Shown here: one piece after another, positions 1,317-51,009 of the stretch
Position numbering within the stretch: the first letter of the stretch is position 1
Layout: each line of letters opens with the position of its first letter
Assembly (NCBI GenBank): GCA_021841025.1
Contig: JAKBWA010000062.1
Span: 1-64,000 of the forward strand
Source of the DNA: Bacillota bacterium
GTDB taxonomy: Bacteria > Bacillota > Sulfobacillia > Sulfobacillales > Sulfobacillaceae
DNA: 64,000 nt
Direction: 5' to 3'
Made by a program: the position numbers and the translations under genes
The notes under the pieces: model-generated
The model's input: the letters and a program-made list of their open reading frames with translations, nothing else
Databases searched by the model: none
Told to the model about the DNA's origin: nothing

Positions 1317-3362
1317 TTAGGTCAATAACTTGAAATAGGCCGGAGGAGATACGCTGGGACTATCAATAAGAAACTGAGGGCCATTAGCATTGAAGAGAAA
1401 GACCAGGTCCTGGGCATACTCGGCATAGATAGAAGGATTTTTTTGGACGATGAGGCGATAGAGATATTGCTGGTTGGCTGGGTTAAACGCACGTGACATT
1501 GAGGAGCGCCTGACGCGGTAATGAAAATAGGGTTCGGGAATCGATGCGCCGTAACATCCATTGTCGAGCATTCGAATGAGACTTTCATAGTCCTCCATCC
1601 CATATTCCATTTCGGAATCGTTTTGGCCATACGCTAAAAAATGTTCGCGGAGATAGACCAAGGCGCTCGTGTTTAACGGATTGTGAAACAATGCATAAGG
1701 AGGTTCTGGGTTCCAAGTTGGCCAGATGTGCCGATCGGCTCCGAAGTATTGGGCCCAACATCCGACGAAACTCAGATTGTCATAGTGCTGTAGGATTTGC
1801 AGGGCACGGACGTAATACCGGGGATCCACGGTATCATCGGCATCGAGAAAAGCCAGAAATGTGCCGGAAGATTTGGCTGCTCCAAAATTTCTGGCCTGGG
1901 CCAAACCCTGATTGACTGTGCGGTAAATGGTTGTATTGGGGTAAGTTTTGGCGGCCTTCCGCAGTGCCGCAATGCTGACACCATCTGTTGACCCATCATC
2001 GACCACGATGATTTCTTTTGGGATATTGGCTGGAACTTTCATGAGACTGTCCAACGTCTCGAAAATGTAAGAACCCAAATTGTAAAAGGGAACCACTATG
2101 CTGAGTAGTCCCGACTTGGTCGTGGCGGCAGGCGGTTGAGATCGTGGCCGCACTACAGGGAACATTGTTGTGGGGGATGGACGGTTGGCCATAGACTGCA
2201 GGAATTCCATCTTTTTGTCATAGATCACATCCGGATTGGTCCACTGTGCAACACGCTCTCTGGCTGCTTTGCCCATAGCACGTCTGGCATCAATGCTTTG
2301 ACGAGAGGCTTTATCAATGGTTTCTCCCAGTTTGGCGGACTCACACACGAAACCGCTTTCTTTATCCACGATGACCTCTTGCTGACCGCCTGTTGCACTG
2401 GCTACCACCACGCATTCACGGCTCATGGCTTCCAAGAGCACGTAGGGCAAATTATCAAATCGCGAGGGAAGCACGACTAATCCCGCGCGCCGATACAGCT
2501 TGTCCAGTTCGTCAGGAGAAACTTGGGCATGAATTGCGATGAGCCCTTTCTGAATGTAGGATGCATAACGGTTGCGAATTTCTTCGGCAAAGGTACGGCC
2601 CTTCAAATAAAAAGGTGTGTCTTGACCCACTAGATCCAGAGGCCATTTAAAGCCCGCGTCCCATAAAGGAGCCAGTTGATCGAGCAAGTCCATGATACCT
2701 TTGAAGTATTGCAGGCGTCCTGCGTATAATAACCGAGATTCCCGGAGAACGGGGCTCAAGGACGTCTTGGGCAATTCGAAAGGATTAGGTATGACTGTCA
2801 CGTCCAATCCGGGCAGAGAATCTTCGAGAGCCTTTTTCAGAAAGGCTGAGGGAGATATCACGGCATCGGCAGCTCTCAGACAGAACCGTTCCATTTCCCC
2901 CGTCCAATAGTCGGGAAGCTGGTAGGTGGCGGAGCGATCAATTGGGTCGAGAAGAAATTTGGGATTATGAGCGGTGACAATGACCCGAAGTGGGGACAGA
3001 ACGGGGTCAAAGGTATGCTTGCGTTGCAAGAGATAATAGGGCAGTGCGAGATATTCCTGACTTTCGATAATATCCGGAGGCCCCTCCTGAGTAACATATT
3101 GTTGGATCATGTCAGCAAATGTATAGCTCAAATTGGCCGAAAACCCCATGATGTAGCGTGAATCTGCTGCCAACTTGGAGAAACGGGTGACAACAATGCC
3201 GTGGGCAATGCTTTCTTGAATGCCCTGGGCATCCTTGTCGTAGACAAAGACCCTCACGTCATGTCCGTGGCTGTGCAGCACTTGGGCCGTTAATGCCGTA
3301 TAAAGCCCAATGCCTCCACCGAAAAATGGTGGATATTCTGTGGTTAGCAACCAGTATTTCAA
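1317..3362 (-). CDS. Two-domain glycosyltransferase (GT4 + GT2 fusion)
   Basis: A 681-residue protein with two glycosyltransferase modules. Residues about 1-390 are a GT4 (GT-B fold) enzyme: N-terminal E-Y-P-P-F-F-G-G-G-I-G glycine-rich loop, L-L-Y-A-G-R-L-Q-Y-F-K-G linker motif and E-A-M-S-R-E near residue 310. After a proline-rich linker (about 395-415), residues about 420-650 are a GT2 (GT-A fold) enzyme with I-V-V-P-F-Y-N, V-D-D-G-S-T-D and a D-A-D-D metal motif. Such fusions usually build cell-surface polysaccharides by adding two sugars in sequence; donor and acceptor cannot be read. The start is TTG at 3362, nine bases after GGAGG. It converges on the carbonic anhydrase gene and diverges from the DeoR gene. 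Confidence 0.88.
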   Translation of the reverse strand: MKYWLLTTEYPPFFGGGIGLYTALTAQVLHSHGHDVRVFVYDKDAQGIQESIAHGIVVTRFSKLAADSRYIMGFSANLSYTFADMIQQYVTQEGPPDIIESQEYLALPYYLLQRKHTFDPVLSPLRVIVTAHNPKFLLDPIDRSATYQLPDYWTGEMERFCLRAADAVISPSAFLKKALEDSLPGLDVTVIPNPFELPKTSLSPVLRESRLLYAGRLQYFKGIMDLLDQLAPLWDAGFKWPLDLVGQDTPFYLKGRTFAEEIRNRYASYIQKGLIAIHAQVSPDELDKLYRRAGLVVLPSRFDNLPYVLLEAMSRECVVVASATGGQQEVIVDKESGFVCESAKLGETIDKASRQSIDARRAMGKAARERVAQWTNPDVIYDKKMEFLQSMANRPSPTTMFPVVRPRSQPPAATTKSGLLSIVVPFYNLGSYIFETLDSLMKVPANIPKEIIVVDDGSTDGVSIAALRKAAKTYPNTTIYRTVNQGLAQARNFGAAKSSGTFLAFLDADDTVDPRYYVRALQILQHYDNLSFVGCWAQYFGADRHIWPTWNPEPPYALFHNPLNTSALVYLREHFLAYGQNDSEMEYGMEDYESLIRMLDNGCYGASIPEPYFHYRVRRSSMSRAFNPANQQYLYRLIVQKNPSIYAEYAQDLVFLFNANGPQFLIDSPSVSPPAYFKLLT

Positions 3363-48889: not shown

Positions 48890-49795
48890 ATGCGCGCAAA
48901 ATTCATCTTGTATTTGGTTGGAGCCAACGTGCTCTGGGCGGGAAACTACCTGGCTGGTAGGGTTTTGCGTCTCAGCATGGGGCCTTTTACCCTCAATGGC
49001 ATACGTTGGATTATCTCAGCCATGATTTTATGGATCATTGTGTCAAAACGCGGGGAATACGTACCATTAAGGCGGGAATGGAAAGCCTTTCTTCTCCTCG
49101 GAACTTTTGGAATGGTGTTATTCTCGAGCTTTACGTATTGGGGACTGAGTATGGTCCCAGCAGGAGAAGCGGGTCTGTTGTCAGGATTTACACCATTGGC
49201 GGTTCTGGTGGCCGGCTTCGTGATAGCGCGTGACACGGTGCGGATATGGCAATGGCTGATGGTTGCCGTGTCTATAACAGGGGAAATTTTGCTGCTGGGT
49301 GGAGCGGGTCATGCTTCTGGAGGAAGTGTTTTTGGTGCTTTAATCTTGATTGGTGCTGCGTTGTCGTGGGGCATTTATACAGCATTGGGGCGGCGTTACC
49401 GGCACCGGTTGTCAGCCTTGGTGCTAACCACGGGGGCCGCCATATGGGGAGCCGTGCCGTCCGCCGTGCTGGGAATTGTGAATCTTGCCACACATCCCAT
49501 AAGCCTTGATTCGCAAAGTATCCTGGCCTTGTTATATATCAGTACGATGGCTTCGGTCGTGGCCTTCATGATGTGGAGTGCTGGGGTTAATGAACTGGGA
49601 AGTGGTACCGCGGCTCCATATTTAAACTTGTTGCCGGTGTTTACGGCGTTGTTAGCTGTGATGTTGCTCCACGAATCGTTAAGTGTGTCCCAGCTTGAAG
49701 GCGGATTGATCGTTGTGGCGGGTGCTGTGGGGGCAGCATGGTCCAAAGAGGCACCCCATTCTCTTAAGAAGACGCCGACATCGATGCCTGAATAA
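48890..49795 (+). CDS. EamA/DMT-family transporter
   Basis: A 301-residue permease with ten membrane segments in two EamA repeats (about 5-135 and 150-285). G-A-N-V-L-W-A-G-N-Y near the start and A-A-P-Y-L-N-L-L-P-V-F near 240 are typical. Exports or imports a small metabolite of unknown identity. Its terminator lies at 49855-49893, inside the convergent thioredoxin-fold gene. Confidence 0.92.
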   Translation: MRAKFILYLVGANVLWAGNYLAGRVLRLSMGPFTLNGIRWIISAMILWIIVSKRGEYVPLRREWKAFLLLGTFGMVLFSSFTYWGLSMVPAGEAGLLSGFTPLAVLVAGFVIARDTVRIWQWLMVAVSITGEILLLGGAGHASGGSVFGALILIGAALSWGIYTALGRRYRHRLSALVLTTGAAIWGAVPSAVLGIVNLATHPISLDSQSILALLYISTMASVVAFMMWSAGVNELGSGTAAPYLNLLPVFTALLAVMLLHESLSVSQLEGGLIVVAGAVGAAWSKEAPHSLKKTPTSMPE

Positions 49796-50399
49796 GATAG
49801 GCCGCAAAATGTTGAGGGGATACCGTGCCGGTAAAGACATAAGGTCCCGGCTCGCACCATGTTGTGGGAACTCCCATAACATGGTGTTTTTTTGCCTTGT
49901 TGGAAAACTCATCCGTTTGAATGACGTGGGCTGTGATTAAAGGCTGCAAGACGCAAAAGTTGATGGCCATGTTCACGACATGGGGACACCGGGTTCATGT
50001 AGGGGACACAAAAATGTTTGCGCTGACGGGATGATGAATTTCCTTCAATAATTGGCTCCAAGGGGTGGGAGAAGAATCTTGGGGACGCACGGAGGCTACC
50101 ACAGCTTCAATAAAGGAGCGATATTCCAAACCCGTGGGCGTGCCCACAAAATGAACGCCAAAGACCTTTCCGTCCCGGTTACGAATTGTCACAGCGGGGT
50201 CTAGATCTGCGCCAATTCTTCCTACTACCTCCCGAGAAATTTTTTGGGGCATCAAGCTGACCGTATAATGGACCAGATCCCGGATAGCTTGTGTGGCCGG
50301 GCTGTCCCATTGATTAGTATGAATACTCAGCACAACCGGTTCAGCTAATAAAGACAACACTGCGGTGACGTCTTGTTCGTGTTCCGAATCTAAAATCAT
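49764..50399 (-). CDS. Candidate selenoprotein: protein-disulfide-oxidoreductase-like, in-frame UGA
   Basis: Two minus-strand open frames (50399-49998 and 49994-49764) are in register and separated only by a TGA at 49995-49997. Read through as selenocysteine the product is 211 residues. Residues about 20-115 form a degenerate first thioredoxin fold (no CxxC); 125-211 form a second fold. The second reads I-F-V-S-P-T-U135-T-R-C138-P-H-V-V-N and later M-G-V-P178-T-T-W with the conserved cis-proline. Family members (PDO, AhpF N-terminal domain) have C-x-x-C-P exactly here, so the UGA replaces the first redox Cys. A hairpin follows the UGA (49967-49983). AAGGAG precedes ATG 50399. The alternative is a Cys-to-stop nonsense mutation. 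Selenocysteine machinery is not in the window. Confidence 0.65.
49855..49893 (+). terminator. Rho-independent terminator of the rhodanese-EamA operon
   Basis: A 14-bp stem with one G-U pair (49855-49868 with 49873-49886), four-base loop, then seven T. It is 60 bases after the EamA stop and lies entirely within the coding sequence of the opposite-strand thioredoxin-fold gene, covering its residues 169-182 including the cis-proline. Confidence 0.9.
49967..49997 (-). promoter_or_regulatory. Candidate bacterial SECIS element with UGA codon
   Basis: Following the UGA (49997-49995) on the minus strand, CCATGT and ACATGG pair around a five-base CGTGA loop (49983-49967). A G-G/C-C pair below it is possible with a bulge. 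The loop begins 18 bases after the UGA and has G at its second position, in line with the known bacterial SECIS pattern. The stem is short, so the call needs covariation support. Confidence 0.5.
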
Positions 50400-51009
50400 C
50401 TTTACTAATCTCCTTAGCGATTGACTTGGTCTAAAGGGAATTTTTAACTGACTGTATCTCCAGCACAATGTGGAATCGATGGCCATACTAAAGATTGCAC
50501 CGATCTTTACGGTCTATCCGTCATGCGTCACCAATTGACGGTGACGCATTGTAATACGCGCTCAATCCTCGTGGGCTTTCGCGTCTTCATCCCGCACCAG
50601 CTCGGAAACTCGCGAGAGTTATTCTATGGTTACGATACCATTCTTGGCTGCAGTGTAAAATGATTGGCCAAGGCGTGTTCTGGGATGGGGCTAAAAGTGA
50701 CGGCGAGAAAACATCACAGGGAAACACTGCCAAAACGAAAAGACGGTGCTGACCCTCAATGAGAAAGGGGAGAGCAATGGGCATTTCGGAGGTGACAAAA
50801 AGGGCAATGAGTCTGGCTGCGTCGTTGCGAATCGATCATGTATTCGTGTGATATTTTGGCGTTTTCGGGGCGTCTAATCCATTTCTCCTCCAAAGGAGAG
50901 CGCAAGTTTGCTGCCAAAGCCTTTTCTTCAAATGCCAGGTTTCTTTTGCATAATACCAATGTCCTTAGACAAGCTACCAAGGTAAATACTTTTGAGGAGG
51001 TCTTTGGCC
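50400..51009. other. Intergenic region with a 10-bp palindrome
   Basis: No gene is supported over about 610 bases; the short minus-strand frames here lack ribosome sites and family features. A perfect hairpin ATGCGTCACC (50523-50532) with GGTGACGCAT (50540-50549), loop of seven, lies about 125 bases upstream of the thioredoxin-fold gene. It could be an operator or a transcript-end structure; no T run follows. Confidence 0.5.

Follow-up and report, generated by a model that had tools for sequence, protein, structure and literature searches.

The window, a 64,000-nucleotide stretch of contig JAKBWA010000062.1 from a Sulfobacillaceae assembly (GCA_021841025.1), contains on its minus strand, from 50399 to 49764, a frame of 211 codons that runs from ATG to TAA with a single internal stop, a TGA. 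The plus-strand translation of the same interval shows many stops. The initial annotation had described two in-register frames split by one TGA at these coordinates, and both points proved correct; it gave no strand, and the gene lies on the minus one. The TGA corresponds to residue 135, in the context NIFVSPT-U-TRC-PHVV, and occupies, as had been proposed, the first position of a CxxC-P motif (U-T-R-C-P), in the column that is invariant among homologues. Besides this position, Cys is found only at residues 138, 149 and 182; residues 1–134 contain none, confirming that the first fold lacks a CxxC of its own, and the calculated mass of the 211-codon product (23.2 kDa) agrees with the approximately 23 kDa foreseen. 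Under the standard code, the frame is called as truncated, ending at the TGA, with 163 codons. The 3′ end of the gene and a convergent EamA transporter gene share 32 bp (49764–49795), and this convergent order is kept throughout the genus. Table 1 lists the features.

Table 1. Features of the putative selenoprotein gene in the window, and tRNA-Sec-like tRNAs at loci of sister genomes
Feature	Position	Strand	Basis
CDS, predicted Sec-containing PDO/AhpF-NTD-like protein, 211 aa	49764..50399; ATG 50397-50399, TAA 49764-49766	-	translation, homologues, alignment, dN/dS
In-frame TGA, predicted Sec codon, residue 135, position 1 of UxxC	49995..49997	-	TGA in 27/30 homologues, TGC/TGT in 3
TGT codon, Cys138, putative resolving cysteine of UxxC	49986..49988	-	invariant in alignment
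Pro178, cis-Pro loop of second thioredoxin fold	49866..49868	-	invariant in alignment; fold assignment by structure
Thioredoxin-fold half 1, Cys-free	50046..50399	-	structure model, Cys positions
Thioredoxin-fold half 2 with UxxC (Pfam Thioredoxin_3)	49767..50045	-	Pfam match, structure model
Bacterial SECIS-type hairpin CCAUGU-CGUGA-ACAUGG; 6 bp stem, 5 nt loop	49967..49983	-	covariation, bSECIS model fit
Shine-Dalgarno-like AAGGAG, 10 nt before ATG	50410..50415	-	sequence
tRNA-Sec-like tRNA-Cys (GCA)	L071 1497-1587; L072 1501-1593	-; +	similar scores in G001, G004

Profile searches placed the second half of the protein in the Pfam family Thioredoxin_3, while the NCBIfam model TIGR02187, named PDO_seleno_TRX by NCBI, covered it almost completely (E 1.2e-29, residues 5–204, model positions 2–208 of 209). 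The score of 103.2 bits lies below the equivalog cut-off of 185, which makes the window gene a homologous paralogue rather than an equivalog. The NCBIfam matches ranking next were AhpF models, and a sequence search against solved structures retrieved the PDOs of Aquifex and Pyrococcus and the AhpF N-terminal region. No member of the DsbA Pfam family was found in the genome. AlphaFold2, given an alignment of 28 sequences, produced a model (pLDDT 93.9) with two tandem thioredoxin folds, the fold shared by PDO and the AhpF N-terminal domain (NTD); the model's best PDB matches were 2ywm (TM-score 0.87), 1a8l (0.86) and 1zyn (0.83), together with 2ayt. A CxxC in both folds, as in a classical two-site PDO, is not present, there being no Cys before residue 135. 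Given the Pfam, NCBIfam, solved-structure and model matches, the protein is predicted to stand alone as a tandem of two thioredoxin folds and, as in the AhpF N-terminal domain, to have only one active site. Reviews already list a ‘Homolog of AhpF N-terminal domain (Grx-like domain protein)’, TIGR02187, with a UxxC motif, as a predicted selenoprotein family (PMC9312934, PMC13188914). Because of this listing, the earlier proposal of a candidate new selenoprotein holds for the gene but not for the family: by its sequence, the window gene is a new, divergent member of an already predicted one.

We searched 61 related genomes for homologues and obtained matches in 47. Sulfobacillus benefaciens AMDSBA1 is one of the named relatives, and the window accordingly belongs to Sulfobacillus or close to it. 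At codon 135, the 30 homologous loci that were fetched carry TGA (27), TGC (2) or TGT (1). Two of the three homologues with a Cys codon come from other Sulfobacillus species (G001 and G005), where they occupy the same syntenic position, while TGA is present in the window’s own genome (G000) and in G002, G003, G004 and G006, including the near-complete genomes G003 and G004 (2–3 contigs). In UGA and Cys genomes alike, the gene lies between the EamA transporter gene and an 81-aa gene. The only invariant columns of the 28-sequence alignment are G86, G90, T134, C/U135, C138, V142 and P178. Since the TGA falls on an invariant CxxC column and recurs in nearly all of the homologous loci, its placement there is more than chance. 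Nei–Gojobori dN/dS was low on both sides of the codon and, after the TGA, amounted to about 0.06–0.36 in pairs with unsaturated dS, indicating purifying selection. Both conservation of TGA across species and its exchange with TGC or TGT between conserved flanks, anticipated in the initial annotation as marks of selenocysteine, were thus observed. The opposite picture, a TGA in this strain alone with decay of the downstream half, was not: the codon is widespread and the downstream part is constrained. Judged from these comparisons, selection evidently maintains UGA where a Cys codon would otherwise stand. An in-frame TAG in the homologues from G024, G026 and G030 was considered as a second recoded stop and rejected, as it is the natural end of the protein.

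A hairpin of the bacterial SECIS type, a line of evidence that the initial annotation did not have, begins 11 nt after the UGA, with an apical G-U. The bSECIS model allows a loop of 3–9 nt, a stem of 4–16 bp, a G at position 1 or 2 of the loop, a spacing of 16–37 nt and an MFE of at most -7.5 kcal/mol (PMC13188914), and the hairpin lies within every one of these limits (5 nt loop starting with CG, 6 bp, 17 nt from UGA to loop, -9.5 kcal/mol). The fold energy of the single-sequence hairpin did not differ significantly from that of shuffled sequences (z -0.77); the SECIS argument is, therefore, founded on covariation. In the comparison of 31 distinct UGA sequences, 98.9% of cells were paired, with compensatory changes in five of the six pairs. 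None of 500 shuffles equalled the observed pairing and covariation score, and sliding the stem to other positions reduced pairing to 20–39%. Codons 3–9 after the UGA (TGT CCC CAT GTC GTG AAC ATG) have identical third bases in five Sulfobacillus UGA sequences (the window and four relatives), in which synonymous sites vary elsewhere. When seven pairs were counted, 66% of cells were paired in the five Cys copies versus 93% in the UGA copies. From the covariation, the fixed third bases and the damaged stem of the Cys copies, it follows that the predicted hairpin tracks the UGA and not the protein sequence.

The initial annotation had proposed looking for selenocysteine genes, and the window’s own assembly (118 contigs) gave a mixed answer. 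It contains selA (contig C58, 470 bits) and selD (contig C20, 362 bits), the latter itself a selenoprotein gene with an in-frame TGA in SGUGCK, whereas neither selB nor a complete tRNA-Sec was found in it. Contig C22, however, ends 16 nt into a tRNA-Sec, which is preceded by a TTGACA/TATGAT-type promoter, also present in relatives; the same contig carries the cysteine synthase gene that precedes tRNA-Sec in the relative G002. No remainder of the tRNA was detected elsewhere in the assembly, allowing up to 3 mismatches. The selB neighbours secD and a spoIIE-like gene were likewise without a match in this assembly; for the Mur-ligase neighbour, there was nothing beyond a 37% match at the edge of a contig. 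As C22 breaks off inside tRNA-Sec and the neighbours of selB are missing along with it, the absence of selB and of tRNA-Sec is best read as a consequence of assembly gaps. In the sister genomes, selB was present in 7/7 and tRNA-Sec with anticodon UCA in 6/7, the seventh genome being 61% complete. By sequence, the UGA precedes a covarying hairpin of the bacterial SECIS type and belongs to a lineage equipped with Sec machinery. Sister genomes also encode a tRNA-Sec-like tRNA of 91–93 nt with anticodon GCA (selC*-type tRNA-Cys), scoring above the Rfam tRNA-Sec cut-off.

The genome contains four Sec PDO-like paralogues, on contigs C110 (the window), C67, C115 and C48. Those on C67 (212 bits) and C115 (195 bits) score above the TIGR02187 cut-off and the window gene below it. 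In the tree, the latter falls into a clade made up of 24 divergent members and separate from the canonical paralogues; within it, only G001 and G005 have Cys. The C115 (L098) and C48 (L099) paralogues have UGA at the same site, within TPTUPHC and TTPGUPKC, respectively. On C67 (L097), the canonical Sec-PDO (minus strand) is found beside a divergently oriented small glutaredoxin-like frame (plus strand, TGA at 3278, TTPTUPHC), which looks like a second selenoprotein, a UxxC glutaredoxin. L103 and L039 likewise have similar glutaredoxin-like frames with UGA close to PDO genes.

Taken as a whole, the evidence is explained best, and with high confidence, by a UGA that inserts Sec into a 211-residue selenoprotein with two fused thioredoxin folds of the PDO/AhpF-NTD type. 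A nonsense mutation of a Cys codon, leaving a pseudogene or a truncated protein with only the first fold, would need one step from a Cys codon to TGA, and G001 and G005 do have Cys forms at this locus. This reading is nevertheless refuted by the conservation of the TGA across species, being common to dozens of species of the order; the low downstream dN/dS, the conserved covarying hairpin and the Sec machinery of the lineage also oppose it, and we consider it very improbable. An error of sequencing or assembly at the codon, conceivable in so fragmented an assembly, is still less credible and is refuted by independent assemblies that share the TGA, the near-complete G003 and G004 included.

Slightly more room, although still little, is left for UGA being reassigned genome-wide or read as Cys by a tRNA-Sec-like tRNA-Cys. 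Such a tRNA is present in sister genomes, and a class of tRNA-Sec-like tRNA-Cys with a UCA anticodon is known elsewhere and provides a precedent (PMC7609411). In this lineage, however, that tRNA has the anticodon GCA, the UCA tRNA is tRNA-Sec and selD has a classic Sec site; moreover, TGA terminates 16 of the 50 long frames in a mechanically compiled list for the window.

With UGA read as Sec, SelB carrying Sec-tRNA would bind the hairpin to direct insertion. By analogy with PDO and AhpF, Sec135 would be the nucleophile attacking a disulfide or a peroxide-derived substrate, and Cys138 would resolve the intermediate as a selenenylsulfide. Both PDO and AhpF are re-reduced by a flavoprotein; a partner of the thioredoxin-reductase/AhpF type may likewise re-reduce this protein. 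The Cys-free first fold probably plays a structural or docking part. As to its role, the protein might carry electrons specifically to a peroxiredoxin, as the AhpF NTD does for AhpC, rather than act as a general disulfide reductase. The predicted structure is about equally close to the AhpF NTD and to PDO, and only the second fold would be active, as in the AhpF NTD. A candidate recipient is the Sulfobacillus Sec peroxiredoxin PrxU, which is upregulated when S. thermotolerans experiences ore stress (PMC7409299). No prx gene is among the identified neighbours of the gene, however, and we regard this role as possible but not the more probable one; the link of the window protein to PrxU is only a suggestion.

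No publication was found that treats this gene in Sulfobacillus; the two papers on the genus that mention selenocysteine deal with formate dehydrogenase and PrxU. Because the frame ends at the TGA by the standard code and scores below the NCBI equivalog cut-off, the gene is likely mis-annotated. With UGA and Cys forms as orthologues at a single locus, Sec/Cys exchange can be followed as a clean natural experiment, and the same set informs the evolution and decay of coding-region SECIS elements. The gene also strengthens the case that thiol redox control in acidophilic Sulfobacillus draws on several selenoproteins. More speculatively, and with considerable doubt, Sulfobacillus and its order may possess a separate, fast-evolving Sec-dependent PDO-like subfamily acting as a dedicated selenium electron relay with its own substrates (e.g. 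a Sec peroxiredoxin) in acidic, metal-rich, oxidising habitats.

Among known systems, the predicted protein shares with TIGR02187 (PDO_seleno_TRX) the two thioredoxin folds, the UxxC in the second fold, the cis-Pro loop and the UGA site, but differs in its motif (U-T-R-C, not U-P-Y-C), its separate clade and its score (103 bits, below the cut-off of 185, which the C67 and C115 paralogues exceed). It resembles the PDOs of Aquifex aeolicus and Pyrococcus (2ywm, 2ayt, 1a8l) in overall fold (TM-score 0.86–0.87). Those proteins, however, use Cys and have two CxxC sites, whereas here a single UxxC is combined with a Cys-free first fold. The AhpF N-terminal domain (1zyn, 5h29) is also alike in fold (TM-score 0.83), and it too has its redox motif only in the second fold, the only active one; unlike that domain, the window protein stands alone, not fused to a flavoprotein, and Sec would replace Cys.
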